DNA of 64,000 nt from Gryganskiella cystojenkinii. Its lineage: Eukaryota > Mortierellomycota > Mortierellomycetes > Mortierellales > Mortierellaceae. Every line of letters starts with the position of its first letter. Within the stretch, counting starts at the first letter, position 1. Positions 40,262 through 63,752 of this stretch are shown here, one piece after another. A program made the position numbers and the translations under genes. The stretch covers positions 32,890 through 96,889 of the forward strand of contig JAAAIG010000010.1 in assembly GCA_015852425.1 (NCBI GenBank), given 5' to 3'. The notes under the pieces are model-generated. The model was given only the letters and a program-made list of their open reading frames with translations, searched no databases and had not been told where the DNA came from.

Positions 40262-43200
40262 ATGCGCGGTCTCTCTTCCCTTTCAAGGCCAGCAGCAGCG
40301 AGTCTGCTGGTCTCGGCCATGTCCGCTTTCACCCTTCTCTCTTCAACGATGCAACAAAGCGAGGCTGTCAGCTTTGGGCAGAGTAAGTTGGCAAATAGCC
40401 GCGTCCCCCCTTTCTACGAAACTCTCTCTCCTCTCCGAATGTTACATTTCTCTCTGTGGCCCTTTCCCAACGACCTCCTTTTTTTGATTTTGTGTCCAAC
40501 GGCTCGACAACCGACAAAAAGACTTTTTTCCATGCAGTGATTGGATTGCAATTTGAATGGCATTCATCGAGTTGGGCAATGAATGAGATGAGGGGAAGAG
40601 AGCAAACACAAGTAGGACCAACATAACGGAACAGGGTCAAGTCTGCGACAACTTTTCTTGAAAGTTCTCTTTATCCTATCCCTCTCGTCTCAACTCTACC
40701 TTGTTTATGATTTTGGTGAAAATCTCGGCAGAAACTCTCGTTCCTTCCAGGGATCCAGTATGATATCTGGGTGTAAAAGTCGAAGAATGTATTGGGAATC
40801 CCTCGTTTCACGTAGTAGCGATCCAGAGCAGTTCTCGGTCATGAAATCGACATTCGGATCGAGAAGACGGGACCCTCACAATTCGGCTGAGGAGGGGGCT
40901 CTAAAGACAGGCGTCCTTCATTCTGTCCAAAGAAAACTTTGGGTTCATTTGATGAGAGGGCACGCCATTTCAAGGACGACAACTTGCACAGGTTGCACCA
41001 ACAGACGGACCAACGTTTGTGAGCCTGGAAGAGTGGGTGAAAAACATTAGGTCATGTTTTCTTTTACTGAACTGGTTGACCACTGCGACTGTGGTTCGGA
41101 GGGTTTTCTCTCTCTCTCTCTCTCTTGTGTTTCGATTTTGTCGTCGGTGCATTCATGTGCTTGAATGTAGGCGTGTAGGGTCAGGGCACAGGGCTTACGA
41201 GAGAAATTTACCGAGGAGGTTCCAGGCCGTTGAAGAAACACACCAAAACTACCAGAGGAACCACAACAACCTGGACGCGTCGTGCGTGGGACGATTGCAA
41301 ATGGGAGATCTGAGTTTTTTATTGTCCACATGTCGTCTTCCGTTTACTTTCCTCAAAGTACTCATCGAACGCCTTTAATATGAATGTTCTATGTACTCTG
41401 TTGCGAGTACTGAACGTTCTGGACACGAAAAATTTGTTTGTCCGCTTCCGCTCTCTTCCCAAACAAGCAAACAAGCAACACATTGACAGAATCTCCCGTC
41501 GCAACTCTAACGGACGCTCTTTTTGGTCATTGTTAACTTGCTCAATAGTGGTCCCTTATGACGGAGTCTACTGTAAAGGGTTCATCGATTACAAGGTCTG
41601 GGTGCCCGATGGTGCCACCGTGGCCATGGTCGAAGGGGCAGCACCACTGAAGCAGCTTCTGGACCTGCCTGACCCATGCAAATCGACTATGCTCTCCTAC
41701 GTTTGCTCAGTGGCATTCCCTCGACCTGTCACGTCTGGAGTTGGTAATTTTTTTAATTGGTTCCCTTTGTAATTGTCTCGTGTTCGCCCTTACACTCTCC
41801 CCCATCTAACATGAACGATACACAACACGCGCTTCTACCTTTTGTTTCTTCCTGCATCCAGGCAACGGCTACAATGTTCTGTTTGCTTGCGAGTCGACCT
41901 GTCAAGCAGCTATCAAGACTTGCAAGGCTGATTTCAGCTATCTCCAACTGCGAGGCATTATCCCCCCGAATATGACCCTCCCAGACTGCTCGGCCTCTAT
42001 TCCAGGCACGGAGCAATTCCCTGGTGGCGCCATCCCTTACCAACCGGACTCATCATGCAATGTCCTTCCTTGTAAGTTCTTTTTCAGTCTCGTCCTTGAT
42101 ACACAGGAGGCGACGACAAACGAACTAACGTTCGACCGCTAAACTTCCATTTATTCCAATACAGTCCAAAGCTCCAACACCACTTGCTCATCACCCATGC
42201 CCCCAGAAGCATGTCTGCCACCTTTTGTCCCAGACTCAGTCTTTGCAGCGACAGGTGGGCTCCAAAACGCAGATGATATCAACTGTGGCTGCGGATGTTG
42301 TTTACCATGCCCCCAAACGGATTCATTTTACAAACCAGGCATTCTCGACAAGGGATTTTTTGTCACGGATGTGTTAAAGGGTGTCTCAGCGGGGTTGGCT
42401 TTGATCCTCGTAGTCTCGTATATTTTTTTGCCGGACAAGCTTCAGCATCCCAGTAATCTGATCTTGTTTGCTGCAATCTCAACCTGTATCTTCAGTGCTG
42501 CTGTGGCGCCTTCTTATGGTAACCCAAAGCGGACTCAGTGTGCGACCCATCAACCGGACCCACATTATGCCATCGTCACCTCGACCTCATATAACAACAA
42601 CCTCTGCACGGCTCAAGGCGCTTGGCTCATTTTTGGAGCGATAGCGACCACGGCGTGGTTGTCGCTCGTCATTGTGAACTTGCATTTGCACACCGTCTGG
42701 AATTCGAACTGGCTAGCGAGACGGGCTTGGTTGTCTCATGTCGTTGGATGGGTCGTCCCCGCAGCTTTCGCCGCCATCGCTGTCATCACAAAGTCGATTG
42801 GATGGAACAACTCGAGCATGTAAGTTAGCGGCCGACGACTCGTTTACCAATTATCTTTATGAGTTTTCATCTTGCATCCTGACCTTTTACTTTTTTTTTA
42901 TTTTTTTTTTTATTTTGTCTAGGTGCATGGCTACGCAGAACACTTCGAACGCATTGTTGTTCATCCCTCTCGGAGTGATCATGGTCCCCTCGATCTTGCT
43001 TCATATTGCGACATTTGCTCACATTATCCGTGTCACGCTCCAGTCCGAGAACTCTGAAACAGTCTCTCACTCGACTCTGTCTTCAGGACGTGCCGCAAGA
43101 ATCTCGCATCGTCGCCACGTCTTGAACGCTATCCGTATCCAATGGCGTGCTGCTTGTCTCGCCGTTGTCATTTCGGCTTCGATTTTGGTCTACTGGGCTT

Positions 43201-43499
43201 TTTACTTGGTCGAGGGTAACAAGACAGACATGTCCTGGATGTCAACCTGGCAACTGTGTATCTTGACCGGCGGTGGTAATCAAGAACAATGCGCGGACCA
43301 GTTTGCAAAGGGAAATGTCCCCCCATTTGTGTTGATGATGATTGCCGAGGGTCTGGTCTCGACCACAGGAGTCTGGATCTTTTTGCTGTTCTTCAAATCG
43401 TCCTTGATCCAGGAATGGCGCGATATGATCACTGGTTGGGCCTGCTGTGGTGGTCGCCGGAATAGAAAGAAGGAGGAGGATGAATTCTATGTGATCTAG
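40262..43499 (+). CDS. Frizzled/Smoothened-like receptor with cysteine-rich domain
   Basis: Five exons (40262-40382, 41549-41743, 41862-42071, 42165-42819 and 42923-43499) give 585 aa. Exon 1 encodes a signal peptide (ASLLVSAMSAFTLL). The ectodomain (about 41-240) resembles a Frizzled cysteine-rich domain: LLDLPDPCKSTMLSYVCSVAFP, then CESTCQAAIKTCKADF, then IIPPNMTLPDCS, then a Cys-dense CGCGCCLPC hinge. Seven hydrophobic helices follow, from VLKGVSAGLALILVVSYIFL (near 246) to VLMMIAEGLVSTTGVWIFLLFF (near 540). The C-terminal tail is short and basic/acidic. In animals such receptors bind Wnt proteins. Fungi are not known to have Wnt, so the ligand here is unknown. Related receptors are known from Dictyostelium and some early fungi. 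Intron 1 is 1,166 bases, long for this genome, so exon 1 is the least certain part. Confidence 0.82.
41107..41125. repeat. (TC)n microsatellite in intron 1 of the Frizzled-like gene
   Basis: Nine and a half TC units in a row, inside the unusually long first intron. It has no obvious function and may vary in length between strains. Confidence 0.9.
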
Positions 43500-43863
43500 A
43501 TGAAAAAAGTCGATATTTTTTTGCGATAGTGTATTTATCTTTTTTCCAACCTACGTCATACATAAAAAACAATGAAATAATATACATTTTCCAGAGAGCA
43601 GAGAGCAGAGAATAATATCAGTTATCTCGTTCTATTCCAAGAAGTCAGTATGAGACTCGTGCCAGATAGCAACCTTTGCCAAGTTTAAGCCCATAGGAAG
43701 CGTTTCGCGCCACCAAATAACTGCGATTGAGGTCATGTGATCGAATCCAAGCCACCGATGCGATGAAATCGGAGATTGAAGGATGCAAGAAACTAGAGGA
43801 ACAATGTCCCATCAAACATTCTAATCATCTGTTTGCATTCTATCATCACACATTACAGTCACC
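43500..43863 (+). other. intergenic, Frizzled-like gene to COX6B
   Basis: This region holds the 3' flank of the receptor gene, with A/T-rich runs and a short GAGAGCA repeat near 43592-43610. It also holds the promoter of the small COX6B gene. No other gene is supported. Confidence 0.5.
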
Positions 43864-44445
43864 ATGTCCGACATCGAGATCAAGACCAGTATGTATTCAA
43901 TTTCAGGACGAAAGGAAATGACTGAAGAACCATTCCATTCGCCCAAAGATCCGACCTTGTTCCTGGACCGAATGGATGCCATTTTGAAACCGAATGTTGT
44001 GCTGATCGGAACAATGATCGACATGAGTCTCCATCGTAATCAAATATGATGCTGCCCTAAACTTGCCGCTCACCATTACATCTTTGTCTCCAATCACTTA
44101 GCCCCCTTCGACGCCCGTTTCCCCAACACCAACCAGAGCAAGCACTGCTGGCAGTCGTACTCCGACTACTTCAAGTGTATCAATGCTCGCGGCGAGGAGT
44201 TTACTGCCTGCAAGGACTTCCAGAAGGCCTACAAGAGCTTGTGCCCCAACAGCTGGGTAAGAGAAGAAATACAATGGATGCACAATGGAGTTACGCCGTG
44301 ACGCTGTGGTTTGAGGAGGATGAAACGCGTCCTCGTTACAAGCTGACCCCCGAATTTTTTGTAAATGATTATTTCGACTCTATAGGTTGCTCAGTGGGAT
44401 GAACAGCGCGAGGAGGGAACCCTTCCTTTCAAGGTCACCGTTTAA
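43864..44445 (+). CDS. COX12: cytochrome c oxidase subunit VIb (COX12/COX6B)
   Basis: Three exons (43864-43888, 44102-44256 and 44386-44445) give 79 aa, the normal size (yeast Cox12 is 83). This subunit sits on the intermembrane-space face of complex IV and links the two halves of the dimer. The sequence shows the FDARFPNTNQSKHCWQSY block and the twin-cysteine pattern: CWQSYSDYFKC (CX9C) and CKDFQKAYKSLC (CX10C). These form two disulfides after import through Mia40. The C-terminal VAQWDEQREEGTLPFK is also typical. Exon 1 has only eight full codons, and the ATG is the only one in frame with a good context (CACCATGTCC). No targeting presequence is seen, as usual for Mia40 substrates. Confidence 0.97.
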
Positions 44446-45467
44446 GAGACAGAGCAGCCGCAACGTGTCCTTTTAGGACGAATACCAGCTTTTTTTTTGT
44501 CTGGAAAATTGTTTGGGTGCGAACTTCTTATAGCATGCAGGGAATAGCACCGTCAGACAACCAGGATTCAAAATTGAAAGGAGGACAGAAAGGAAGACCA
44601 CCATCAACAAAACAACAAGCGGGAGGCAATTGACTACAAACGCCCCCGTACACTCCACTCATATCAATCAAACCATGTCCTTTGTCGAAAACTAGAAAGA
44701 ATAGGACAGAGATAGCCGAAATAGAGGACAAAACATATAAAATTACAGACCTATCTCATATTGCGCAAGATCAACAAAGGAGGGCACGAGGTCTGGATAA
44801 GAACAGAAAGGAAAGAACCAATATGGCACCGATGATGACAGGAAATTTCACAGTGTCGAAGAAAGCAAGGCCCTCGCAGCCAAGGACTATTTATGCTTCT
44901 TGACGGTTCTGCTTTATTGAGTGATTGGCGGTAGTTCATCCCTGAGATCATTGTGGGCGATACTGCACACGAAAACGATGACTGAATAAAAGGTAAAAAA
45001 TTGACAAGGGAAAAACGTCGAAAGCCAATCGACGGAGAAAAGATGTCCAGATAAACAATGGATAGTGACTATGAGCCGTCCATCTTTGCCTTTTAAAAAT
45101 TCCAGCCTTCAACCTAACGCCGGGATCTCGTCGATCATGTTGGTGACCCTCACTGTTTCCCTCGAACATCGCATCGTAATCATGGGTATGAGTTCTTATG
45201 CGTCCATCCTGTTCTCCCATAGTCTTATCTCCTTCCGACGCTTTCCGGTCGTTCGCCCGTCATCTCTCCTTCGCTTCCCGCAGTTTATCTTCCCCAAGGA
45301 TCTTCACCAACAGCGTTCTTCCTTTCCTGGTCTCTTTTTTTGCGTCTCCTGGATTCCGTCTTTTGCATCACAACTCCCCTCAAACATCTCTAGGTGATTC
45401 ACTAATATCCCGACTCTCTAGCTCCCCCACTGAAATCTCTCCTCCGACAAATAACAGCATCTTCACC
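44446..45467. other. intergenic, COX6B to RNase T2 pseudogene
   Basis: No supported gene. Small open frames occur on both strands without domains. The stretch 45200-45467 is C/T-rich on the plus strand and may be the remnant promoter of the RNase T2 pseudogene. Confidence 0.45.
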
Positions 45468-45851
45468 ATGAGGCTTAAGTCCATTGCCATCTCCCTGGCT
45501 ATCGCCTCAATGTCTGCCGTCTCGGTGCTAAAGAGTAGCTTCCCCGTAAATGGACCCATTCGTGCCAATACACAGGCAGTGTTTCTAACGCGTGCTGCAT
45601 GGAATCACCAGCTGGCTTATTGATTCAGGCTCAAGTATGGATACAATCCCAACGACTGGCCCCCTAAGGATAGTTTCACCATCCTAGGACTCTGGAACGA
45701 CAACTCTGACGGTACCATCCGTACAAACTGTGACTCATTTCGGGCTTACACCGATGTCGCGAGCCTTTTCACAGCCCAAGGAGTATCGGATACACTGGTG
45801 TACATACAAACTCACTGGACAACAGAACAAACGAACACTTTGGGAATCTGA
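45468..45851 (+). pseudogene. ribonuclease T2 pseudogene
   Basis: An ATG at 45468 starts a signal-peptide-like frame (MRLKSIAISLAIASMSAVS) that runs to an in-frame TGA at 45621-45623. The same frame then reads on from 45624 to a second TGA at 45849-45851. The second part is clearly RNase T2-like: a Tyr/Asn-rich lead, then the first catalytic block SFTILGLWNDNSDGT, then a THW-type strand. The catalytic histidine of block I (normally in FxIHGLW) is a leucine, encoded at 45684-45686. Cysteines expected near the N-terminus (CP) and in the DNCDG motif are Phe and Ser. The second catalytic block (HEWxKHG) is absent, because the frame ends before it. RNase T2 enzymes are secreted or vacuolar endoribonucleases. 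With a stop, lost catalytic residue, lost cysteines and truncation, this copy cannot be active. Confidence 0.75.
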
Positions 45852-48483
45852 GCGGGCTTTACGCGGAACCTGTTAGTCTTGAACCTGATTGCTTGACGAT
45901 CTTAAGTGCTAAGAGACGCTTCCTTTGTAGATTTTCTCTTTCTCAACATTTATTTCAATCGATGGACCGTCGGCGAATACCTAATGTGCTAGCGCTGATA
46001 TCAAGTACCTCCCCAATTCCCAGCAAGAACGCGTTGCCCTCCCGCTGCATGTAATACGGCTGTTAATATACTCAGCCTCCTCACACCCACATGTTGCCCT
46101 TGGACCCCCCTGAGAGAAAAAAGTCGCGCCGCTAGGCGCAGGTGACAAATAAATAGTCAAAAAATACTCAAGTGACCACAGGAACCAGTATGGTTTGGTC
46201 GGCCGAGGAAATTTTGTCGCTTTTGTTGTACTCTTTTTGTCCTTGGAAACATGAACCGAGAGGAATCGATGAGGGAGTGTTGACTGATCAAGGTCACCAT
46301 GCCTTTGTCGTTGTATAACCATACACAGCTGGAACTTACCTAAGGACCACTCGGAGAACCCAGTTAATAAAAATTTATCCTCCCCTTCCGGAGATGAAGT
46401 GCCACTTGACTATCGAATGGCAGCGTCATTAGCCTGAACCCAAACATCATTTTTGAACTGAGCTGAACGACACGCGAGCGAAGGAGGTCATTCATGAAAA
46501 AAAAAACCTTAACCCGTCGACTCTTCCACTACGCATCCAAATGTACTATGACATTGTATTTTTTTTCTTTATGGAGCCAGAAGCCAGACAAAAGGCAACT
46601 CTACCCCAACAACCCCGTAAATCCTATCGAGTAATGAAAAATATGTCAAATGGGCTACTGCGAGTTGTACTGCATACTGCAGAAGAAGAAGAAAAATAAA
46701 TAAGAACAACCGCAGAGTAGACAGTAAAGCTTGTTAGAGCCAAAGTGTAGGATGCAGGGAGGATACACAAGTGTGGAGAAGAGCCGAACACCACCCTTTG
46801 CTTATTCTATGTTTTTGTTGATACTGTTGTTCTGTTCTGCAGGGAAAACTGCTCAACTTCTCGACTGAAAAAGGTGATCAAACGTAACTTTTTTTTTTTG
46901 CTTTCTCATAGCCCTGCTTCCTCTTAAAAAGTCAAAAGGTCTGGACAGCAATTGGCTCTCAGGCGATCTGCAATATCCCACCTCCGACCTCCCGTCAGTC
47001 CGGCAGCGCGTTGCGGGACATGGATCACTTTACCCCCTTCACAAGGTAGACGTTCAAAATTGCCCCAAACCGGCGCTGTTGCAAAAAAAAAGAAAGTCTT
47101 TTATCTTTTCAGTGTACGTGAACCCAAAAAAAAAAATGAGGGAATTGAGTTGTAGTAAAAAGCCTGACCCTCTCCATTCCTCGAATAGGTCGCCTCTCCG
47201 GTCTGGCTGGCTGGGAACTCTGTTTGTAGCTCCCGCACATGGCAAGCCCTTCCCCCTGTGAAACTCTGTTCGGTGGGGCGGATCCTTCCCCCTGTTTGTC
47301 GAAGGGCCGCCTCCAATTTGGGTTGGTGGGATTTGTGATGCGAATTTTTCAATTTACCTTGAAATGTTTCCGTGGGGAGAATTTTTGCAACCCCACAACA
47401 AACAAACAAATAAACAGCAGAAATGATCCGTAGGAAGAATCAATTTGGGCGAATGGAAGCAAAAAAAAAAAAAGTTGTTGTGCCTTGCGTGCGTGATCTT
47501 ACCTAACAGCAAAAGCAACTACACAAGACCACCGTCGGTTGTCCCTGATGCTGCCCCTGTTGCTCTTGCTGTCGTTCCGTTGAGTAGAAAGGGTTTTGCT
47601 TCGCTTTCACTACAAGCTGGTACGTGAACGAATGATAGCACTTTGCCACAATTTTTTCCCTCCAAATTATTTTCAGCAAAAAAAGGCGCAGACAGCAAAT
47701 GGTAGGGTAGGACTGCAGTCATCGACAGAGGAGAAAAAGGAGACAAGGTAGAGCATAATGCTGGTGTATGTTGCGCTTGGGCTGAGTTTTCAAGGCAGGT
47801 GTTTGTCCAGCACCAGGAGCAAAAAAAATAAAAATAAAAAAAAGTAGAAAAGTCAGGTCATCCGTCTGCCATCCACACGCCTCTTCGGGTTGGCCGATAT
47901 TTTTTTGTCATTTCCAATTTTTTTTTGTTGGATCGCCCCCAAAAGGAATAAGACCGAGAGACCGACACCATTGCACCCTTTTTTCTGTACTGTTGTTTGT
48001 CCCTGCTTTGCTTGCTCGTCCTCTTTCACCGTCATTCGAACCACCCATTCATCCCTTCAACCCATCCAAAACACACCTCACCCCATTCCTTCTTTTATTG
48101 ATGCCCATTCTGTCTGCCCCACTGTGACCACTCTTTCTTTTCTCTTTTTTTAAACTTCTTTGTTTCAACATTCTTCTTCTGCTCTCTTAGCCCAGCTGTT
48201 CCTTCTTGCTCACTTTCTCTCCTCCTTCATTAGTCATTCATATTCCCCTTTCAGCAGTACCCTGTACTCATTCACAACCCCCAATACACATTAATCACCG
48301 TCAGCAACCCTCCCTCTATCCTCTCTTCGCACTCTTCTGGCAGCGCAGCTTTTCTCTATTTAACGTGATCTGTCTTGGCGCCAATCCTTTCTCCCTTCAA
48401 GCCAACGCCCCATCGTCCTCATATCATACACCTTTCTCATTCTCCCGAGAATAACAAGAACGGAGCAACTCAACAGAACCAGG
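45852..48483. other. gene-poor region upstream of VAP-like gene
   Basis: This 2.6-kb stretch has many A and T runs and no convincing coding frame on either strand. From about 47990 to 48483 the plus strand is strongly C/T-rich, which marks the promoter and 5' leader of the MSP-domain gene. I looked for a tRNA B box and for transposon terminal repeats and saw none. Confidence 0.45.
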
Positions 48484-50790
48484 ATGACTCTCTCTAGCAG
48501 CCCAACCTCATCCACCAGCAGCAGCCAAAGCACCACGTCCTTTCTTCGAATTTCCCCTCAAAACTTTCAGTTTACAGGTACGAAATCTTTACCTTTCCCC
48601 AAACCACAGGGGTTCGTCCCACAAAAAGGAAATCAGGGCGAAAGACGTGAATTCAAAAGAGATAGGAAAGTCGGTCGACTGTCGACAACTAAAAAAAAGT
48701 TGGTTGGGTGGAGCACATGTTTGATTTGGTGCCTGCATGGCCACAGCAAAAGCAGGAAATACCTCTTTCACCAGTACGACATTTTAGTAGGACCTTCCAT
48801 AGCTCCACCCCGCAACTTTTTGAGTTCATTCCAAGGCAACAACCCCCAATTTTTTATTTCTATCCTCTGTCCCTCGGCACGACGTCGTCAAAGGCCTGTA
48901 TCCTTTCATTCGCAAAAGGCCCAACAATGCGCAGCAATTCACTCTCACGTCAAACAGTCAGACTAAGAATATGTCGGTTGCTCGTCGTTGGATGCATGAA
49001 CAATTTGTTCTGATCCAGACTGTTTGTGAAGGATAGGAAAGAGCAGGTGTTGGTGCATAACACAAAAGAAATGGCAGCGTGTCATTGCTGAATTGTCTGT
49101 TGAGATATGGGGTCGACACGTTTCTCCACAGCGCATTAACGCACAGACTCAAACATACGCGCTTTCGGTTGGAATATCCCCCCAAAAAACAAGAAACCTT
49201 CAAATCGGAAGATTTAGTCCAGAGATGCTCTAGAGTGGGGCAGGGGAGAGAGAGGCGTTCAAGGAACCAAAGGAAAAGGGTGTGTGTCTGGACTGAGGAC
49301 GCGTCTTGGGGATGATTGGAACCTTTTCTCTTTGGCATGTTCAAAGCGAATACGTTCTCATTGCTGGTGCATATCTCTAATAGTCTGTCCTCGCACATTA
49401 TTGTCGTTGTAGCTTCCAAGGTCTCGTCCGGTCTTGTCTCCAAACTCAAAATCAAAAACTTGTTAAGCGCACCTGTCGGTTACAAGTTCAAGACCAATGC
49501 GCCTCTGAGATACTCTGTCAAGCCTGTCCTTGGGGTGCTTACTCCCGGACAGTCGATCGAGGTGTTTGGTAAGAGAAAAAAAAAAAAGAACGCTATCGAT
49601 TTGCTGCAAATGCAATACAAGATCAACACCACATCTCCTAACAGTCTTTATATGTTTTATAGTTCGCTGCGAAAATTGGGTAAATCCACAGGATCGGTTC
49701 TTGTTGCAGAGTGTTGCCTTGACCAAGGAAGAGAGCGACTATATTGATGCCACCAGCGTAAGTACTTCCTTTTTTTGAAATTTCTTTAACACCTCGAATG
49801 CTGTTAGGAGCAGGGCATTAAAGCTGATCTTTCTGCTCTTCGATGCATCCTATATAATAGTGGAAAGAATTGGACCGCAGGAGAATTATCGAGACCTTTA
49901 TCCAGTGTGCTTCTTCGTCAACATTAGCGCTGCGCGATCCACAGGATGATGGAGGTTCGATCTCTTCCTCCTCCTCCTCTAATTCTTCCTCCGTGACGTC
50001 ATCTGTCCACTCGTCGACTCGATCCGATCGTTCCGACAGGTCTCGTCCTCAACCTCATACTCAACGGTCCTACCACCACCAACAGAGCGATCACCTTCAG
50101 GCGCCTGGAGGCGGTCGCAAAATGTCCACAAGTTCAGCGACATCCTCGGCCGCCTCAGCATCCCCTCCTGGCTCCTATCCAACACTTTTCAGATCGTCCT
50201 CCAAAGGCGCTGCCACCAATGCATCCCTCGCATCCTCAAATTCAACATCAACCAAAGTTTCAAGAGGATCAACCGTAAGTGCCAAGGGCGAGAGTGTAGA
50301 CTCCCCCACGCCATCTTCTGCTCTTGGCCTATTGGCTGTTCCTGTTGGTTATTTGACCTCAAAGCTCAGTAATTCCAAGCAAACTGTGCGGATGGTGTCG
50401 AGGTTCCTGGCCGTTCGCCACTATACCAAAATGCAAGTCTTTACGGTCTCGGTCATTTGTCTCCTCCTGGGCTTACTCTTGCCGCTCGAGAAGCTGTTGG
50501 TCCTGGTCGGTGGCGGAACAGCCCTGCCCGCGGTCATGAACCATCAGCATTCTCATGATCCTTTCCAGAACGGTGGTATCTTGACCACCCGAACGGCGAT
50601 TCGTGCCTCGCCTTTGTCGTCGTCGTTGGATCTTGCTTACTCTACACTCTCGGTTGTTGCCCCTTCTTCAGAACCTGCAGCGTTTCAGAACGTACCGGAG
50701 GCGGAACATATCGAGGTCGATCCAATTGAGTCGTCTTTGACCGGTAACGATGCACCACCTATGACCGTTGAAGTCGAAGGGTCTGTTTGA
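48484..50790 (+). CDS. VAP/SCS2-type MSP-domain membrane protein
   Basis: Four exons (48484-48577, 49413-49568, 49663-49757 and 49861-50790) give 424 aa. The MSP domain (about 20-130) has LRISPQNFQF at its first strand and the VAP signature GYKFKTNAPLRYSVKP, which binds FFAT motifs. VAP proteins sit in the ER membrane and form contact sites with other membranes for lipid transfer. A Ser-rich linker (about 140-300) follows, then a single strong membrane segment (TVSVICLLLGLLLPLEKLLVLV) near 308-330. Typical VAPs end just after this segment. Here about 95 further residues follow, which would face the ER lumen if the topology is standard. There is no obvious coiled coil, another difference from yeast Scs2 relatives. 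Intron 1 is 835 bases but joins the first MSP strand cleanly. Confidence 0.87.
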
Positions 50791-51102: not shown

Positions 51103-52147
<1,045 letters not shown>

Positions 52148-52353: not shown

Positions 52354-52444
52354 CTCGAAATAAAAATAAATTAAAAAAAGGATTGATCCCCTTAAGTCTC
52401 CTTTTTTGTGCTTTTTTCTGGTGGCAAAAAGTAAAGGGCTTTTT

Positions 52445-54129
52445 TTATGAGTCTCTTATCTCGGTGGCGTCTTGAGGTAATCTCGCCTCAGAGCTTTCCT
52501 CCACTGGTGCAGGTGTCGTATTCGCTGTCGAACCTTCGGCTGAATCCTCCGCGGCTCGTACTTCTACAGAGTCTGCAGGAGAATCTGTCGAGACTTCATC
52601 ATCCGTGGTCACGGTCACAGCAGACGGTAATCCAGGCGCTTGTCCTGCAAGAGGTTTTCTGAACTTGCCCTGCAACCATACACGGTACATCTTGATCTTT
52701 CGTAACCGATTGACAATCAACCTCCGGTCGACTGCATTCTGTTCGATCGTGAACTTTGATCCAAACAACTTTACAATCTCTTCAGAGTCGAAGAAGTACA
52801 CTCTCGTACCCTCGCCGCGGACATAAAAGTTGTCCGAGAGGAGTCGATTCTTCTTAAAACGAAGCTGAGCCATATCATATCGACCATAGTCTCGGAACAC
52901 AATGAGTCCACCGGGTTTGAGGAGCTATGGTATATTGCAGAGTGAAAAGTTATGTGAGTAATGGACACTTCCTTTCGTCGAATATCTTATGTAACAACGA
53001 CCGCCCCTGTACCTTGTATAGGTTGTTCATGGCCTGGTCCCACTTGTCAGGGTGAAGCGCTGAGAGTACAAAGATTAAAACGAGTACATCCATAGACTCT
53101 GGTTCGACCTCTGGAGGAATGTTGTCGCCAGCCAGGTCCCAGACAAAGGCCTTGCCTCGTTTCTCATCATATGCTGGGTTACTCTTCACAACCTCGACCG
53201 CCGTTGAAGAAAAGTCACAGGCATAGACAAAAAGCTTCTCGTTCTTGCTCTCGCGCAACAACGGGAACATGGTATTTCCTGCGCCGCATCCAATCTCCAT
53301 GACAGCCTTCTCTCCAGCCTATTTTTTTTATTAAAAAAAAAAAAAAAAAAAAGAATAGCGATCCAGATGAATTGCTTGTGTTAGAATGAGGCCCATCGCA
53401 ATTTCGACAATGAAGGCTTGTCCAAGAATCGCCGAGGACAAAATCTGTCAAAACTTACATCGGCTTCGACCATCTGGAAGAGTTCTGGGAACTCGATTCT
53501 TAGATAATGACGATCCTTATAAAAACGATTCTCATTCTTGGTATAAAACTTGTTCCAGTTCTGAGCAGCCTCGGCGTGATAAGTCTCAACAAGCTCTGTA
53601 GGAACAGGATCCAGTTTTTGTCGCGCAATCTCTTTCAATGCATGTTGTTCCTGTTCCTCGCCCCAAGGTGCATGATCCCTAGAAGGTAGCACAAAACGGG
53701 ATGAAAACATGTTAGGAACATGCTTGACTAGATCAGCCGCCCAGCATCCTAACATCGACTCCAAGTCATAGTCCATTACCAAGCGTTTTGCTCAAAAACA
53801 GAGGACTCGTCTGTAAGGATGCGACCTCCGAAGGGCTTTGAATCGCCGGCGCCCACATCTCTCGAACTGGATTCCTCCTTCTTCTTGTTGCTGTTGTTGT
53901 CTTTGCTATCGCTGCTACTCGCACCATCAGTAGTATCTGTTGTTTCTGTGGTATCTACTATTGCCTCTGCCGAGTCATCTGCGCTTGCCTCGGCCACTGC
54001 TGCGGCTGACTCGTGTCTCTTGTTCGAGTGCTGTTCCTCCTCGGAGGCGAGTTCCGAGTGCCGCTTCTTCGAGTCGTCCTGGGTCGAAGGCCCAGTGTTG
54101 ATTTTTGCAGCTTGTTCTGATCCAGACAT
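52445..54129 (-). CDS. TRM140: tRNA N3-methylcytidine methyltransferase, TRM140/METTL2-like
   Basis: Four exons (54129-53780, 53678-53459, 53318-53013 and 52924-52445) give 451 aa. Trm140 and METTL2 put the m3C mark at position 32 of tRNA-Thr and tRNA-Ser. The first 105 residues are low-complexity Ser/Asp/Glu-rich. The m3C-type core then begins: [12 protein letters not shown], an [18 protein letters not shown] motif, and the Rossmann SAM site [35 protein letters not shown] and the family block [21 protein letters not shown] follow. All these are diagnostic for the METTL2/6/8 group. A further Ser/Thr/Glu-rich tail of about 75 residues ends the protein. It lacks the actin-binding fusion found in S. 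cerevisiae Trm140. The gene is divergent from the BAG-domain gene, with starts 267 bases apart. Confidence 0.93.
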
Positions 54130-54395
54130 GTTTGGCGAAGTGAACGTGATTGTCGAAATGGAGAATCACTTTCATGTTTCAACGAGTTATATTTTTTTTG
54201 ATCCGGTTGGTCACATGATCATAAACTAAATTTTTTTCTAGAGCTTGCGAGTTGTTCGACGCGTTCCATGGACAAGTTTCATTTATAGCGGGAAAAAATT
54301 GTTGCACCTTCTTCAGGTTCTATCTTTTCACATCCTCTTAACTCCACCCTCACCCCACCTCCCCTCCCATCTATTTGTGTGCTCATCGTTCGTCG

Positions 54396-55664
54396 ATGTA
54401 CCCATTCTTCTCAGATCCCAGAGCGCAAGGCCGTGGAGCTCGTAGGCGCCAAGAGCGCAATGATTTCTTCCCTGCCTTCTCTGACTCACAGTTCTTTGAT
54501 CCGTTCTCTTCGATGCAGTCGGACGAGAGCCGTTCTGCTACTGAATCTGAGCTCGGTCACTCACCCTACCAACAACAGCCTCACAAGCAGCACCGCAATG
54601 TTCAGCAGCAACGTCCCCAGCAACAATATCAACAAGAGCGTCAGTCCCAGCCTCCACAGCAGCAAGAGCCTCAGCATAGACAACCTCAATTCCACGGTCG
54701 TTCTCCTGTGGCGGTAAATCATCCTGGTGTGCCATCCTTACAGAAACCTCACCATCACTCTCCTCAACAGCATCAACACCATAGCCGTCAACAGCAGCAG
54801 CAGCAGCCACAGTCGCAGTCGCAGCAGCAACACCGCCGTCAGCAGGTTCGTCCTCCTCGTCAAGAATCACTCCAGCAGCAATACGAGACTCTGAAACAGC
54901 AAGAAGAACAGCAGCTGCAGCAACAACAACAGCGTCATCCCAACCAGGGTATTAACCCTGGTCATCAATCTGTCGCGACCAACAATCAGAGAAAGCAACA
55001 TATACTTCATCAGAAGCGACAGGGTCGTGGTCAGAATCAACGTTCGCAACAAGGATTCAGACCCCTCGAAGCTGATGAGGCTGCCAATGATCTCGAATCT
55101 TTGGTCCAAGACGCCTTTGGAGATACAGTCCCCGTTCATGCACCAAAGAGTGCTCCAGTCCACCTCCCAAGAGATCATCAGGCACCAACCCATCCCCCAC
55201 GTCCCAATGGTCATTACAAGATCCCCGCAAAGGAACAACGCCATCAACGGTTTTCCGATCCGGTCGAGTCATCGGAGGCAGCCTCAGATGAAGAAGAGCA
55301 GCAGGAACGCCAAGACGATACCGATCAAGACCAAGACTGGTCAGAGGAGGAAGAGATGAAGCCCGATCCCGAGGTCCAAGCGAGAAGTAATAAAGAGCTG
55401 GGTGAGATTCGACGAAACCTTGAGGGTCTTGCAGCAGAACTCGACCAGATCCTAAAGGGTGTGATCAAGAATCGTAAACAGATCCTGATGACCGAAGAGA
55501 ATCTGACCAAGGCCATGCTTAAGATTGACTCTGTAGATAGTGGTGGCGATGACTCGATCCGCAAGCAACGCAAGGACTTGATCAACCGTGCAGAGGGTCT
55601 GCTGGCAAAGGTCGACGAGTTCAAGCACCGGACCAAGACCACCATTCCTCAAAAGGCTGTTTAG
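54396..55664 (+). CDS. polyglutamine BAG-domain protein
   Basis: A single exon of 422 aa. The C-terminal 85 residues (about 335-420) form a three-helix BAG-like domain: SNKELGEIRRNLEGLAAELD, then TEENLTKAMLKIDSVDSGGDD, then QRKDLINRAEGLLAKVDEF. BAG domains bind the ATPase half of Hsp70 and release ADP. The N-terminus (MYPFFSDPRAQGR, FFPAFSDSQFFDPF) is aromatic-rich. The middle (about 50-230) is very rich in Gln, His and Pro, with many Gln runs, as in stress-related scaffold proteins. An acidic segment lies at about 285-325. The start is the ATG at 54396; an in-frame codon at 54375 has no initiator support. No intron is seen, unlike almost every other gene in this window. The Hsp70 link is inferred from the domain. 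Confidence 0.75.
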   Translation: MYPFFSDPRAQGRGARRRQERNDFFPAFSDSQFFDPFSSMQSDESRSATESELGHSPYQQQPHKQHRNVQQQRPQQQYQQERQSQPPQQQEPQHRQPQFHGRSPVAVNHPGVPSLQKPHHHSPQQHQHHSRQQQQQQPQSQSQQQHRRQQVRPPRQESLQQQYETLKQQEEQQLQQQQQRHPNQGINPGHQSVATNNQRKQHILHQKRQGRGQNQRSQQGFRPLEADEAANDLESLVQDAFGDTVPVHAPKSAPVHLPRDHQAPTHPPRPNGHYKIPAKEQRHQRFSDPVESSEAASDEEEQQERQDDTDQDQDWSEEEEMKPDPEVQARSNKELGEIRRNLEGLAAELDQILKGVIKNRKQILMTEENLTKAMLKIDSVDSGGDDSIRKQRKDLINRAEGLLAKVDEFKHRTKTTIPQKAV

Positions 55665-56872
55665 ATTGTGAAGTAGCACGGGTTGAATTTTTTTTTGCAC
55701 CTTGTCCCATAGGTCATCCCTTGTAAATAGTTCGTTTTCATGACAGAATAAACCCGGATCCCGAATGTGGGCAAGATCAATGAAAAAGCCCGATTTTGGA
55801 ATGTTGCTCAGTTTGTGAACGCCAGCTTCGCATGGGACCTTTTCTCTTGCATTATGACGTTTATCTACCCCAGGGGGAACCTCGTTCATGCAGTGATTAC
55901 AACAGGGCGTGTGTGTATGGAGGGTAACAATAGCTTTCCCTTGGCAAAGAAATGAGTAACAGAGTGAAAAAATTGATTCGACCTCCACCCCCCAGCTCTC
56001 GTTTGGTTCGTTGTCCACTCAGTGCCGTGCTGCTGTCTCAGCCCTTTTTTTGGCATTTGTTCTATTGTTCTGTAGCGTGTAGTTCTATGCCGACCTCATT
56101 CCCATTTGCATCGTTTTTTTAAATAGTCTTCACATTCACATTACATTCACCACATTCATTCGTTTCATACATCCCTCTACCCCCGGTACGCAATACTAGT
56201 TTTCTCTCTCACACACCCACAGGCAAACTCTTTCTTCCATGCACCATTTTTATTTTTATTTTTCTCCTTTTTTTTATCTGTTGGTTCATTACGCTACCCT
56301 TCTCTATCCCTACCGAATCAACAAAGTCTTGACTGTTGGATTAAACTCCACCAATCTGTTATCTTTAGCCTAGATCGCTCCTCGCTCTCACAAGACTTTC
56401 TTATCCTCACTACCTGAGTGGTATGTATCCCTTTGGTGGCATCATCCATCCAAAGCCAAAAAAAAACAGCAAAACAACAAAATCTTGTCTTCTTCATCCA
56501 AGATTTTGTAAGACTGTGGGGACTGTGCTTCTTCCAGGGTATGCGCCAGGGAACCTAATTTTAAACGAATCGATATTAAATCCTCTATTTTTTTGGGCGA
56601 AATTTTCTGCGCACCGAAAATCGGAGTCTCTGCGTGGAAAGGGATGCACTTGCAACTCCAACACTCATCCCTCTCTTTCTCTCTCGGTCATCTTTCGTTA
56701 GCGATCGACTTTGTAACCATCAGCGAAACTCTCAAAGGAAAGAACTCGAATCGACATTATTGAACGAAGGTTTTTTATGACGCTGTCGAGCGTGCCTGAC
56801 CCCCGGATAAGGGTGGAGGCAACCTCATGGACGAATCCGTCCTCATCATCTGCAGAAATAGCTGTAACAAGG
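55665..56872 (+). other. intergenic, BAG gene to class C receptor
   Basis: This 1.2-kb region holds the 3' flank of the BAG gene and a C/T-rich leader before the receptor (about 56000-56420 and 56650-56700). In-frame ATG codons at 56777 and other small frames occur, but the receptor's best start is 56873, because only this one begins directly with a signal peptide. No other gene is supported. Confidence 0.5.
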
Positions 56873-59800
56873 ATGAAATGCACGAGATCCGGACCCAGGA
56901 GAAGACTTGGTTGCCGGCTGACTTTACTCCTCGGATGTTCTCTCGTCCTTGTTTACCAATCAGGTTGTTTGGCGGATGCTCCAACTAGTAACGCCACCAG
57001 CAGCAATTGGACAGCCAACCCCTCCTCATGGATACGACACAGCCATGATCTCCTCCCGATCAAGGAGCAGGATGAAATCTGGAGAGGCGACACTCTCTAC
57101 GACCCCCCTGTCAAAGCTCCAGGCTTGACTGACGAGGAATTCACTGAGACTTGGCGAGGAGAACCCGGCACAATTAAGATAGGAATTCTTTTGCCGTTTA
57201 CACCGAATCCAGATGTTGCCTACCGGGCCATCGTGTCCAGGATCAGTTTTTCGGTGAGTTACTCTCTTGGAGACTATAAGTGTTAGTGACAACTGGATAT
57301 GGCCGAAAGATCACAGGAATCTAAAGTCGAGCTTTTTTTTTTATTCTTGAAAATCGAAACAGGTCCTCCGCATGGCCGTCAGAGATATGAATGACCGACA
57401 AACCATACCAGGCAAAGATTTTTTTACACATATGAATATTGTTGTTGGTTGGATGACCAGAATCTCGCCACTCATGTTTTCCAACATTTCTCCTCTTCGT
57501 GCAACTAGGAATGAATATCTCCCTGGTCCTAAGAGATAGTCAGCGCCGTATACAAAGCACAAACGCCTCAGGAGTTGCCGCTGCGATCTCGGCTACGACT
57601 CGGCTACTTGCCATGGAAGTTGGTGGCATCATCGGCGACGTTGCCTCAGAACTGACCTCGGCTGAGGCTCTCATGACATCGAGTGTTGGTGTGCCACAAT
57701 GTTCCTTTACGTCTTGTAAGCGGACATCTGCCTTTTTTTGTCTGTATCCCATAACGGTCGTGTCACTCGTTTTGTCTGGCTTTGTCCTATCTGACTTTCT
57801 TTCCCAAAATGAATAGATAACATGGACCTTGAATACATCTCGAATTACGCGTACGAGTTCCGTACCGCACCTGGCGTCTTGGCTTATGTCGACGCTCTAA
57901 GCAAGGTCGCTATGCACTATGGCTGGAAAAGATTTACGATCTTTCACACCTCGGACGTTACAGGAATTTTAGGTATAATATTTCGACTTGTTTTTTTAAA
58001 AAAAAAATTCATGGAGTGCAGAGAGCCTGGCCTTTTATCTTTATTCTTTGTTCTTTTGATTTATGTAAAGCTCAGATTTTCTTTTCTGTTATTTCTTATC
58101 GTTCCTCCCCTCCTTTTCGAAAAAATTAGGTGAAAAATTGCTTACAAAATTGTGCAAGGACGTCGAGATCCTCAAGGTCGCGATCCCTCTACCAGAGCAA
58201 GACAATCAGCTTGTGCCCCTTGCTCAAAAAGCGATCCCGGCGATCCAGGACTCAAATTACCGCATTCATTTCTTGATCGCTGCCAGAGCCGATCAGGTCA
58301 CCTTATTGAATGTTATCAGGTACTCGTGCACAAAAGACAAAAAAAAAAGTTGCTGAAACTCTCCACATCTTGACCCCACTTTGACCTTGTGTTTAACCTC
58401 GCGAAATGGCCAATTTTGTTCCTTATGTAGGAACGCGGGCCTGCTCCATAAGGATCATGTGTGGCTGACGCCAATCGACATGTCGGACTCGATCGCTCTT
58501 TTGGATAGACCTGAGGATTTCAACGGTCTCATCATGGCAGACGCTTTATGGGAACTCACAGGGGTGCCAGAATTCGAAAACTTTGTCTCGAACTGGCGCA
58601 GCTTAGATACAAAAAAGTAAAGGAGCACTTTTTCTCGAAAATGACCCAAGACCCAGGCGCGGATTAGAGTTTTCTAACGCAATAGTTATTTTCATTGGGA
58701 TCATAGGTATCCTTTATCTGGATCTGCGCAGCTTACCTGGCACGAAACATATGCCTACACGTGCGTTCAGGTCCTCGCCGAAGCATACAGAGCAGTAAGC
58801 CGAAAATAATTTAGCTTTTCAAGAGCCAAAGAGAGGAGCGGACAAAAATAACGAGACAGTCTGCTGACATGAATGAGTTTCTATTCCGTATGATTAGTTG
58901 GTCCAAAACGCAATGCTAATCACGAATGACACCCAGAGGGCGATGGTGTTGCATGAAATTCGACGTGGGAGACGAAGTCAAAACTTGACCGATGCATTTT
59001 TAGGGTCAAGGAACTACAGTACGCCTGTCGGTGACTTTTCTGTCGATGGGCGTGGCAACCCGTTGAATTCGTGAGTCGCGACAAACAAGTGAACCTGATT
59101 TTACTCTCTTAGCTATGAATTGCGCGCACAATCAATTACACATTTCTCAACCTCTTCCTTTCTTTGTTCTTCCGCGGTAGACGGATATCCATCCTGACCT
59201 TCCAAAATACTACCAGTGTTCCAAACGGGAAAGTCATCAATAGCGTGGTCAACATATTCAAACCTATCAGATTTAAAGGAAACACTACGGTTCCTCCGCG
59301 AGATTCGCCCGCATGGGAAGGTACGTAAAATTTATCCGTTCTGTTTGGCGGGAATAGCTGATGCTGCACTATGGCTAACTCATTTCTTATTTTGAACTTA
59401 GAACTGAACCCTGACGCTGATTCGCCATTCGGTATTGTCCTCATCCTATTGTCCTCCGTTTTGATGCTCGCCATTTTTTTTACCGCGATCGTTGTTATCG
59501 TCAACAGGGACAACATCATCATCAAATCTGCGAGGCAAGTGATAATATTGTTTCATATGAATTCATACTTGGTGATTGTCCCGTACCTCATCTAACTCAT
59601 CTAACTAGAATTTTTTAATCCATTAAGTCCGTTGTTCTGTATACTTGAGCTGATTGGGTTGGCTTTGACACTCTCTTGGTCTTATCTGAGAGCGGATGTT
59701 CCCACAGCAGGAATCTGTAGGATCGGTCTCTTGGTTGTAGTCGTCGGCTTAACTATCAATCTGTCCGCGCTGGTCGTCAAGAACTATCGAATCTATCGAA

Positions 59801-62800
59801 TTTTCAACAGTGTTAGCATCATCAACCACGCTGTTTCGAACAAGTATTTGTTACGCGTGGTCGCTATCCCTGTGGTCCTCGTACTGGCAAGTTTGTTGTC
59901 GCTATTCCGAAGAATTATGCTTTTGTATGATACTCAAGGATTATGAGTAACCTTTTTTTTTCCTGCAATGCTACTCCATTTAGATTCCTTGTATCATCCA
60001 TAGCTTTGTCCACTATCTTGTGCCGGATCTGGTCAGGACCAATAACCACGAGTACTGGGTACAATGCAGTTCTGATGAGTCTCAGTCCGTGTGGAATATT
60101 ATGATTGCATTAATTCCCATCCTGTTGAACATCTTTGGAGTCTATCTTGCATTTAAGACCCGAAACGTGACCCGCCTTTGGAATGAAGCCCGTGCCATCG
60201 CAACAACGATCTAGTAGGTTATTTCAGGACCATTTTCAGTAAGGGAAATTGTAAAAAAAAATGTGAGTTTAACCTCTTCGCCTGTGGTCGAAATTTCTAT
60301 TGGATGGATTAGCATCGTTACGTTCTTCGTGATCATCATTGTGATCGTGCAGACGTTTCCAGCGTATCTCTACCAGGTGTCATATTATGTTACAATGGTC
60401 TGCGTTTATGTCGCCTGTTTGCTCGAGTATTGTATCCTATTCATTCCGAAGCTCCGGAACCTTTGGTTGCAAAAACGTGGACTCCACGTACCAGCAGGAC
60501 GCGACGGCGACATGATGGACAGCATCTTGGGCGGTATGTCTGCTGCGGTCGGACGACGAGGCGCTGTGAGTATTGGTGAAGCCGATGGTACTGCTGGCGC
60601 TGAATTCACAGAAGACGGAGAGAAACGCTTTGGGTCAACTGCAGGAATGCTCTCCTCTGAGCGCGCATCGATCGCGTCTTCCGAAGCTCAGCAGAACATG
60701 AACATCTCGGATCTGGTCTCATCCTATCCATTCGGTCAGATCAACAACGAAAATGGAGCTGCACCCATCACATCGCCTGTCCATCGACCTACCTTCTATG
60801 GCCACTCGGATCTTTCCAACCAAGGCGGTGGAAAATCCGTCTCTAGGCAGGATGCCAACAACGCAGATACTCCGGATTCGTCAGAGATGCCACGGCGATT
60901 GCCACCTCGGCCATCACATCTGATGGGTCGTCTCTCCAGCGACGGGACTCAAGTCGAATCTTCCTCTCAACCAAAAACTGGAACAAACTACGATGCATTT
61001 GCGGGTGGAGTTGGTCGAAGAATGGCGGGCCGGGGTAGCCGAGATGCTCAACCCTTCGATCTTCACGAGATCTTGCTTGCCTCCTCGATTAACCGAACTA
61101 CTCCTGATACCATTTCCGGTCCTCGTTCCAATGGAATGTTGTCTGTGAATCAGAGCGATTACTTTGGCGATTCAGATATGGATTTGCGGTCACGGAAGAG
61201 TAGTTTCGGGGACTTTGGTCAGTCCGGCATAGGAAGGTCTCGGACAGGAGGCATTCCGGGAAATAAGAGTCCCAACCTATACCCACCACAAAAACAGGGC
61301 GCGTTGAATGCCGGAAACGGTTCTATGAAATCTGGGATGCGCGAGACCAGGGTAAGAGGATCGACGAACCTGTGCGTCTACTTTTTATGCGGACAGGACT
61401 GACTTCAAACTTTTCATTTTTACCTTCGAAAAACTAGATGGATTCCTATACTGTTATCGTTCCAGTTCAGAGGCAACGCTGGTACATTATGCGTGTACTT
61501 GCACAATGGCGCATGTCCAAGATTATTTTTGTACCGTACTCCAAGGTCCTGGTGATCGTCGATGTGAGTACAGCTATTCTTTTACTGCCCCTTCGACTCT
61601 ATTGGTCGGGTTGACAGAGCCTTTGAACTAATATTGCTGCACCATGGTAACATAGTTGGAGACTGAAAAGTCTTACAGTCTTATTTTGCATACGATCGAG
61701 ACTGGATACTCGTCGCCGAGGCGTCAAAGCACAGAGATCAGAACCAACGCAGATATCCCTGAGGTCATAAACAAGATATCTACACCGAGTCGTCCTCCAA
61801 CAGTCCTTGTTCGCGAGGATTCAGAAGCCCCAAAGGATCCTGTCTTGTTTTCAAATCAAATGGCACCCGCGATCCAAAAGTCACCCGAGACAGTCGCGGA
61901 TAGGCGCCCTGCGCTGGGTGATATTTGTGTCCAGATTCTACCTGATGACACGTCCATGCCCTCCACCTCAACTCAATTAGCAGTTAGCTGTGCTGAACTG
62001 ACTGCACAACGACCCTCGCTCAGACGGCGAATTAGTCAACAAGTGATGAATTTTCCTCCCATTAACCTCGGCCTTGACGAACGAAATTTCGATGGTGTTC
62101 ACAGCAAAGATGATGGATGTCTTGGCGGGATGGATGAGGGAATCCAAACCGATTATATCATACGCGTCATATCGATCCATAATGAGTGTTGGCGAGTTCA
62201 ACTTCCAGACCAAGAAACCATGGATCGTTGGATCGATATCGGGCAGCAGATAAAGGATGAAAACTGGATCGCAAGACCCTTGACTGGCAGTCGAGGCAAT
62301 TCGGGTTCCACCAAACAAGGTCCTGGCGGCGATGAACTCGCCGGTGCAATTGCGGAAGACGATAGCTTGCCAGGCGTCGGTGGATCCTCAAGTCTGGCAA
62401 CCCAACGAACACGAAAGATGAGTCAGTCCTTCCATCCGTTGCAGCACCATGGAAGCGAGCCTTTCCTTAGAGATGATCCCAGTCCAAGACCTCGGAGGGA
62501 GGATCGGTGGATGGGTGATCTGACCGACTCCAGCACGCCATCCAACGACTCTGAGCGACAGATCAACCGCGAACGCGCGGCCCGGATCAACCAACGTATG
62601 AACGCGTCCAGCAAGTTCCCGTCCGTCTATTTGCGAGGATTGAGATCTGAGAGTATCAAGAGCGGGAGCAGTAGTCCGACTCGAGAACTGTCCCCAATCA
62701 CGTTTGGAACGGAATCACCCATCCCGAGACGTATCCATCGACCGTCAGCCCTCAGTTCGCTCAGTCGGATCATGACGCTTCCTCTCTCCTCGACCGAGCT

Positions 62801-63752
62801 TGACACTGTCTTGTCGTCGGAAGGAATCCCCGCAAGCGAACCAACAAGTGCCATTCCAGGCCATGACCGAGGACGGTCGTCGGAAGGAATCCCCGCAAGC
62901 GAACCAACAAGTGCCATTCCAGGTCATGACCGAGGACGGTCGTCGGAAGGAATCCCCGCAAGCGAACCAACAAGTGCCTTTCCAGACCATTGCCGAGGAC
63001 TGTCGATTGACAACAATGACAATGGCAGCATTGATCTGGGCCCGTTGAGTAGAAGGGGCACCGAGGATACGGATCTACGTGATGTTCTGGCAGAGACCAA
63101 TATTGCATACCATCAAGGACATCATGCGATATATCATGATCAGGATCCAGCACTCGCTCATCGAGAGCATCGACATTTTAATAGTCTGCAGTATAACTAC
63201 GATCGGAGGCGAAGTCGAGAAGACGAAGCTCCGGAGAGTCCTGAATGGCACTTGACTAGTGTCGAGGTGGATCAGATGGAAGCACAGCGAAGCCAGCCAG
63301 AAAGAACAGGCAACAGGGATAACGACGAGCTCACGACTCCAGTGCCGATTCTTTCGATCACTGGACCACCAGAAACTCTCTTGGATCAGGAGTGGTCGAA
63401 CGAGGATCCGATCCCTTCAACACTTTCACTTTTTCATCCGCTTGCTCCTCCTCCTCTTCCGCCTGCTCAGCAGGAGGATGAGACGACCCAAGGTGCTCTT
63501 GCGCCACCCGCGCTTGAGAGTTTCGTACCCATGTCTCCGATGATGATACATCTCCCTCCGACATTCCCAAAGTTTTGTCCGCCCGGTCAAGAAGAGAATG
63601 GACTTCAGGAACACGGTCAGGTCCATATGACAGAGGTTTTTGATACTCCTCAGACTCCTGCGTCTCAAGAGCTCCTGGACCGTGGCTCTGCCGATCCGAT
63701 GGTCTCAACTCCTATCGAGAACTCATCCAACACAGGAACGGCGGCGCAATGA
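56873..63752 (+). CDS. class C (GABA-B-like) G protein-coupled receptor
   Basis: Fifteen exons give 1,832 aa: 56873-57253, 57363-57411, 57509-57715, 57817-57972, 58130-58319, 58431-58616, 58707-58794, 58898-59070, 59181-59320, 59402-59534, 59628-59886, 59984-60213, 60268-61351, 61438-61563 and 61656-63752. A signal peptide (CRLTLLLGCSLVLV) is followed by a Venus-flytrap ligand domain (about 100-520; IKIGILLPFTPN, AVRDMNDRQTIPG, ISLVLRDSQRR, HYGWKRFTIFHTSD). Seven helices follow (about 530-790). Landmarks are SPLFCILELIGLAL in helix 2, the AGIC cysteine in helix 3 and VYLAFKTRNVTRLWNEAR after helix 5. There is no cysteine-rich linker, as in GABA-B receptors. A Ser-rich cytoplasmic tail of about 1,000 residues ends the protein. 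The ligand is unknown. Introns 2, 10 and 11 appear to be GC-AG. Confidence 0.85.
62814..63002 (+). repeat. 63-bp tandem repeat, three copies, in the receptor tail
   Basis: Three head-to-tail 63-base copies start at 62814, 62877 and 62940, coding three 21-residue units that begin SSEGIPASEPTSA. The first two are nearly identical. The third differs in its last part (an I-to-F change and others). The period is a multiple of three, so the frame is kept. It lies in the disordered cytoplasmic tail of the class C receptor. Confidence 0.95.

Follow-up and report, generated by a model that had tools for sequence, protein, structure and literature searches.

What two animal-type receptor genes are doing close together in a fungal genome, and whether their closeness means anything, is the question raised by a stretch of 64,000 nucleotides from Gryganskiella cystojenkinii (contig JAAAIG010000010.1, forward strand; hereafter 'the window'). 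One gene encodes a Frizzled-like receptor and the other, roughly 13.4 kb away, a class C (GABA-B-like) receptor. Both receptor classes were already known in early-diverging fungi; what stands out is a pleckstrin homology (PH)-like domain in the tail of the class C receptor, which the preliminary description of the window had missed. The explanation we favour, at a probability of roughly 0.55, is that the window holds two receptors of the Mortierellaceae, a Frizzled-like one that would signal independently of Dishevelled and a class C one whose PH-like tail would tether it to phosphoinositides or to the Gβγ subunits of a G protein. The genome searched comprises 35 Mb in 1050 contigs, the window being positions 32890–96889 of the contig here called C2. 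Both gene models were spliced by hand, with splice sites supported by the reading frame and by relatives, and the helices of both receptors are peaks of a Kyte–Doolittle hydropathy scan; coordinates are collected in the table below.

The class C gene encodes a GABA-B-type receptor in which a Venus-flytrap domain is joined directly to seven helices. Its first 796 residues, scanned against Pfam, match ANF_receptor (76.6 bits, cut-off 25.4, E = 2.5e-21) and 7tm_3 (124.8 bits, cut-off 33.5, E = 6e-36), and the hydropathy scan gives a signal-peptide-like peak followed by seven more, in agreement with the preliminary description. The top match in a sequence search of the PDB is GABA-B2 (E = 2.3e-13), and GABA-B chains occupy ranks 1–5 (TM-scores 0.21–0.34) when the AlphaFold model of a paralogue, P0045, is searched with Foldseek. 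The direct junction of flytrap and 7tm_3 core is likewise that of the GABA-B receptor, and no match to the cysteine-rich NCD3G domain was found between the two up to E = 1. Since NCD3G has not been detected in non-metazoan receptors, according to the accessible part of PMC12716839, its absence alone is a weak marker of the GABA-B subtype. A protein search returned 45 homologues, and a third protein search returned 10 proteins; the nearest relative is an Entomortierella parvispora protein with 53.6% identity over 1509 aligned columns. An apparent stop codon that might have marked a pseudogene, TAG at 60212–60214, is in frame only if the intron at 60214–60312 is missed, and removal of that intron restores the peptide TIYIVTFFVIIIVIVQTFP, which is near that of relatives. 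Three introns of the gene are of the GC-AG type, with GC donors at 57412, 59535 and 59887. Kinase domains (PF08543/PF00294) are attached to the class C receptor in the database models P0021, P0024 and P0030, one of which is named pyridoxal kinase; these models probably join neighbouring genes.

Beyond the helices, the cytoplasmic tail is long and mostly of low conservation, and within it lies a conserved domain that has no name in Pfam. Two blocks of this domain, 'DSYTVTVPVQRQRWYI..LAQWRMSKIIFVPYSKVLVIVDLETEKS' and 'YIIRVISIHNECWRVQLPDQETMDRWIEIGQQIKDENWI', are common to the orthologues of the window receptor, in which an insert separates them; in the paralogues both blocks are present and contiguous. 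A hidden Markov model (HMM) of the domain, built from the merged split and contiguous alignments and cut into two halves, found both halves in 41 of the 54 class C proteins retrieved and one half or more in 49; among the 51 proteins from Mortierellaceae, at least half of the domain is present in 49. Eighteen of the 54 proteins, P0015 included, had supplied the profile, and when these are left out both halves are found in 23 of 36 and at least one in 31 of 36. In the source genome the 7tm_3 profile gives nine matches at five loci (C313, C949, C200, C2 and C220), and the tail domain is present at all five, as seen at C949 and C220 from tblastn matches running through the domain to P0035 and P0039, and at C313 and C200 from exons read by eye. 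A second conserved block lies C-terminal to the PH-like domain, at the tail end, in the split clade (DVLAETNIAYHQGHHAIY, NSLQYNYDRRR and SPEWHLTS).

The split and contiguous forms match each other in profile comparison: with the insert removed, the split form matches the contiguous form in hhalign at 98.3% (E about 2e-14), and none of 100 column shuffles scored as high. In a tree of the seven-transmembrane region the split form makes up one clade with a support of 100/100, although one member, P0019, shows the first half only; in the sister group (P0034, P0035, P0041, P0037 and P0038) the domain was found either contiguous or not at all. The tree holds 25 rows, namely the window, two other loci of the source genome and 22 of the 54 retrieved proteins; P0015, P0039, P0042 and P0167, which have no anchor motif, were left out, and three long outgroup rows are unsure. 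The contiguous form also occurs in two more clades, which makes the insert of about 147 residues look derived.

Whether this domain is a PH domain is the point on which our reading turns. The AlphaFold model of P0045, computed from 18 sequences, has strands at residues 835–841, 853–861, 866–870, 877–890, 893–900 and 904–910, followed by a helix at 913–924; the block is predicted confidently, with predicted local distance difference test (pLDDT) values of 71–91 over residues 831–920 and of 59 over 921–930, behind a linker of about 260 residues (573–831) that stays below 50. The C-terminal helix that follows the strands carries an invariant tryptophan. Of the Pfam families, a PH family alone is matched by more than two of ten tail fragments, and the merged tail alignment matches nine PH domains of the source genome at E = 0.0012 (local) and E = 0.0011–0.0012 (global), scores that no shuffle out of 100 reached in either mode. 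On the model of the paralogue, we infer that the tail folds as a true PH domain and that the split form folds alike.

Several results weigh against this. The P0045 tail has six strands as assigned by DSSP, against the seven of a PH domain, although the long strand 877–890 might be read as two. The AlphaFold model of a split-form relative, P0040, is of low confidence (mean pLDDT 37.7, with the blocks of the two halves at 33–69). No PH family of Pfam scored above its cut-off for the tail, the best being PH_21 at E = 0.0033 in three of ten fragments (two of seven in a smaller set), and a PDB profile search returned a single match, a spectrin PH domain, at E = 0.54. The nine PH domains of the comparison set were picked by hand from the 30 PF00169 matches of the source genome, each with a tryptophan near its end, and the hhalign probabilities of the merged comparison are low (19% local, 8% global). 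They are lower still when the sets are compared separately: the contiguous set gives E = 0.0084 and 4.7% locally (0/100 shuffles as high) and E = 0.098 and 0.35% globally (3/100), and the split set gives E = 0.0016 and 15.9% locally and E = 0.11 and 0.32% globally. The rows listed by Foldseek and VIA-align for P0045 are all receptor cores and thus say nothing of the tail. The tail HMM, finally, has no match in P0037 and P0038 (models of 1035 and 1043 residues), in the chytrid proteins P0171 and P0172 or in P0173.

Given these results, the tail could instead belong to another superfamily, as a module rich in beta strands, or be a scaffold peculiar to this lineage that binds protein partners only; in either case it would resemble a PH domain in strand order alone. 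The failure of every curated PH profile, the ceiling of 19% in hhalign and the six strands all speak for it, as does the window copy itself, in which inspection by eye picks out no obvious phosphoinositide motif of the canonical basic kind. Against it stand the run of strands closed by a helix with its invariant tryptophan, the Pfam result that more than two of ten fragments match a PH family and no other, and the score of the merged profile, which in the comparison with the genome's own PH domains exceeded all 100 shuffles; we regard it as possible but the less probable reading. Since no curated profile was passed, we call the domain PH-like rather than PH. That it is shared with the class C receptors of chytrids was considered and rejected, as P0171 gave an hhalign probability of 0.10% and P0171, P0172 and P0173 gave the null HMM results just described. 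P0171 itself, a class C receptor from a chytrid, has an ectodomain of the laminin-G type, and its last 100 or so residues look PH-like by eye but failed the profile comparison.

With the PH-like reading retained, the architecture of flytrap, seven helices and built-in PH domain would be a distinct one of Mortierellaceae class C receptors, older than the split of the four paralogous clades sampled, and such a receptor would read phosphoinositides or Gβγ as well as its ligand, the PH domain of the window clade having been opened by a regulatory insert; we put this at slightly better than even odds. Class C receptors are switched by closure of the flytrap and act through G proteins, and in animals GABA-B receptors leave a role such as that proposed for the tail to separate partners, for example KCTD proteins. 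In the Mortierellaceae receptor, a ligand that closes the flytrap would be expected to change the state of the helices and so turn on a G protein; the PH-like domain might hold the tail against phosphoinositide-rich membrane or capture released Gβγ, and so localise or damp the signal. Binding of phosphoinositides or Gβγ is not a universal property of the PH superfamily. Ligand sensing and the reading of lipid or Gβγ would thereby be coupled in one chain, which would give the study of signalling in these soil fungi, a large group, something definite to start from; no report of receptor ligands in this group was found. G-alpha profile matches lie on five contigs of the genome, with one further weak match. 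Matches to Pyridoxal_deC, a family that includes glutamate decarboxylase among others, lie on three contigs and make production of GABA by the fungus possible.

Known systems offer partial parallels. The PH-like domain sets the window receptor apart from the GABA-B receptor, which it resembles in flytrap and 7tm_3 core and which itself binds GABA as an obligate heterodimer. PLC-gamma contains a split PH domain, a PH-type fold interrupted by an insert of folded domains; the window tail is interrupted in the same manner, whereas its insert is low-conservation sequence. In GPCR-PIPK receptors the core is not of class C. They resemble the window receptor in combining seven helices with a phosphoinositide-related C-terminal domain (PMC12716839, accessible part), but that domain is a lipid kinase, whereas here a PH-like fold sits on a class C core. 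The only occurrence of 'pleckstrin' in that part of PMC12716839 concerns the DEP domain of GPR155, and a word search of the main text of PMC12842992 found none of 'pleckstrin', 'C-terminal', 'Mucor', 'Mortier' and 'Glomero'. Searches of an open-licence library, which lacks most subscription papers, preprints and supplements, yielded no paper on a class C receptor with a PH domain.

The other gene of the pair encodes a Frizzled/Smoothened-like receptor of a Mucoromycota type, with a divergent Fz-type ectodomain and a seven-helix core. As in animal Frizzled and Smoothened proteins, the Frizzled seven-transmembrane profile is above its cut-off (55.8 bits, cut-off 22.3, E = 5.8e-15, residues 246–563); 7tm_2 matches as well (29.5 bits, cut-off 20.6), the hydropathy peaks number exactly seven, and Frizzled-3 is the sole match in a PDB sequence search (three chains, best E = 1.5e-7). 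Exon 1 encodes a hydrophobic segment that looks signal-like by eye. The cysteine-rich ectodomain claimed in the preliminary description holds as far as aligned cysteines go, each of seven being present in 27–29 of 29 rows, but not by the Fz profile, which gives 21.0 bits (E = 5.1e-4) against a cut-off of 32.1; the receptor classes and domain layouts given there for both genes are supported. Among four relatives scanned, P0145 from Phycomyces passes the Fz cut-off (37.6 bits), whereas P0046, P0139 and P0153 stay below it. An Fz domain has been described for the Frizzled homologues of fungi and amoebozoans (PMC12716839, accessible part).

The Frizzled profile finds four loci in the source genome. 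A protein search that scored 7996 candidates, those sharing most words, yielded at least 119 homologues, mostly from Mortierellaceae, the nearest being an E. parvispora protein (78% identity over 100% of the query); further genera represented include Mucor, Rhizopus, Phycomyces, Umbelopsis, Jimgerdemannia, Gigaspora, Diversispora and Funneliformis, and a single homologue is from the chytrid Blyttiomyces. The database models P0064 and P0078 fuse the receptor with PF00026, probably by joining neighbouring genes.

Aligned with 28 of the 119 homologues, the window protein forms part of a set of 29 rows, 18 from Mortierellaceae and 11 from outside that family, in which the Mortierellaceae lack two ectodomain cysteines found in other Mucoromycota. 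One, the cysteine of a [YF]x[KR]C pattern, is in 11 of 11 of the other rows and 0 of 18 Mortierellaceae rows; the second, ahead of the first shared cysteine, is in 10 of 11 (P0141 being the exception) and 0 of 17, P0074, whose model is missing this part, not being counted. In the disulfide numbering of Frizzled these would correspond to Cys5 and Cys1, which are bonded to each other, so that the pattern fits a single joint loss or gain within one clade. When the Fz cysteines were sought with a regular expression, a place for it was found in 100 of 120 proteins but was wrong in at least six, and the statement on cysteines therefore rests on the 29-row alignment; P0055 (Mortierellaceae), flagged by this pattern, has a model that seems short of an exon.

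The motif KTxxxW after helix 7 is the mark of the animal-type Frizzled that serves Wnt and Dishevelled. It is absent from the last 80 residues of all 120 Frizzled-like proteins, truncated and fused models included. The window protein reads FFKSSLIQEW, and instead of KTxxxW the fungal proteins have an [ED]W position (110 of 120 have it within their last 60 residues) and end in F-x-x-[IL]: the terminal pattern is F[FYIL][VA][IL] in 102 and [FY]xx[IL] in 106 of 120, several of the remainder being truncated or fused models. We infer that this end is a sorting or PDZ-type signal. Together with the missing KTxxxW, it points to an output independent of Dishevelled, which would make these receptors useful for asking what Frizzled did before Wnt. 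The receptor would sense an extracellular ligand and signal through a heterotrimeric G protein. No match to Wnt or DIX was found in the genome, in profile searches run without a positive control, and we agree with the preliminary description that the signals sensed by both receptors would be ones not yet recognised.

As to the pairing, the window may simply hold two ordinary members of known fungal receptor classes, close together by inherited order and with nothing further to explain. By the Pfam definitions used in the accessible part of PMC12842992, both genes qualify for fungal G-protein-coupled receptor classes 16 (Glutamate) and 17 (Frizzled), on 7tm_3 or Frizzled plus seven helices. An earlier survey had reported Glutamate receptors in four fungal species, with one in Rhizopus oryzae, and Frizzled in Chytridiomycota only (Krishnan 2012, PMC3251606), and a survey from 2025, which covers 1357 fungal species, counts 918 proteins of the Glutamate class and 187 of the Frizzled class (PMC12842992; both sources as far as accessible). 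The claim that both classes are rare in fungi is thus overstated, while their restriction to early-diverging lineages stands in so far as they are nearly absent from Ascomycota and Basidiomycota in these sources. With four Frizzled-like and five class C loci there are 20 possible pairs in 35 Mb, and the chance that one falls within about 13.4 kb is roughly 1.5–3%, a post hoc figure that takes no account of contig ends, so that a chance pair this close would not be very improbable. The best relatives of the two genes in E. parvispora, EMPS_00654 and EMPS_00660, lie six locus tags apart, on contigs each given as 2944119 bases; the gene order thus looks inherited and the pairing looks like plain microsynteny, not the special arrangement of the preliminary description. 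All of this suits the ordinary reading; what it leaves unexplained is the conservation of the tail domain across four clades of class C receptors, and as a full account of the locus we consider it possible but less probable.

A functional cluster, of co-regulated genes or of receptors that form heteromers, would draw on the same proximity and on the linkage in E. parvispora, as well as on the relatives P0014 and P0073 of Benniella sp., which are on contigs both of 3213968 bases. The named genes between the receptors are of unrelated types (PCNA, a methyltransferase, BAG), and in Linnemannia zychae the relatives P0030 and P0059 are on contigs of 108296 and 108011 bases, respectively (from assemblies that were not compared with each other); we deem such a cluster very improbable.

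Table. Features of the window, with positions counted from its first nucleotide.
Feature	Position	Strand	Parts or residues	Size or basis
Frizzled-like receptor gene	40262–43499	+	exons 40262–40382, 41549–41743, 41862–42071, 42165–42819, 42923–43499 (including stop)	585 aa
Divergent Fz-type cysteine-rich ectodomain	41572–41989	+	residues 49–148; intron 41744–41861 inside	weak Fz match and alignment
Conserved ectodomain cysteines			C49, C84, C93, C115, C119, C126, C148	each in 27–29 of 29 alignment rows
Seven-helix region, Frizzled-like	42359–43394	+	residues 241–551; intron 42820–42922 inside	hydropathy and Frizzled profile
Conserved C-terminal end DEFYVI	43479–43496	+		F582 in 29/29 alignment rows
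Open reading frame, no Pfam match	49861–50790		between receptors	Pfam scan
PCNA	51103–51618	−	between receptors	Pfam scan
Methyltransferase piece	52950–53318	−	between receptors	Pfam scan
Gln-rich open reading frame with BAG domain	54342–55664		between receptors	Pfam scan
Class C (GABA-B-like) receptor gene	56873–63752	+	15 exons	1817 aa, intact, no internal stop
Class C exons 1–8		+	56873–57253, 57363–57411, 57509–57715, 57817–57972, 58130–58319, 58431–58616, 58707–58794, 58898–59070	
Class C exons 9–15		+	59181–59320, 59402–59534, 59628–59886, 59984–60213, 60313–61351, 61438–61563, 61656–63752 (including stop)	
Venus-flytrap (ANF_receptor) domain	57363–59205	+	residues 128–485	Pfam; Peripla_BP_6 similarity from residue 100
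7tm_3 region	59419–60451	+	residues 530–777	Pfam and hydropathy
PH-like tail domain, first half	61441–61709	+	residues 1079–1137; intron 61564–61655 inside	
Insert splitting PH-like domain	61710–62150	+		147 residues, low conservation
PH-like tail domain, second half	62151–62270	+	residues 1285–1324	holds conserved helix Trp
In-frame tandem repeat of 63 bases	62813–63005	+	coding tail of class C gene	3.1 copies

Rfam and transfer RNA scans of the window, the latter run with the bacterial code, gave no match. Upstream of the receptor pair, Pfam places Rpb1 domains in 33308–34822, within a gene for the largest subunit of RNA polymerase that spans 33308–36676, and an open reading frame at 6174–7739 appears by eye to be TFIIB/BRF-like.

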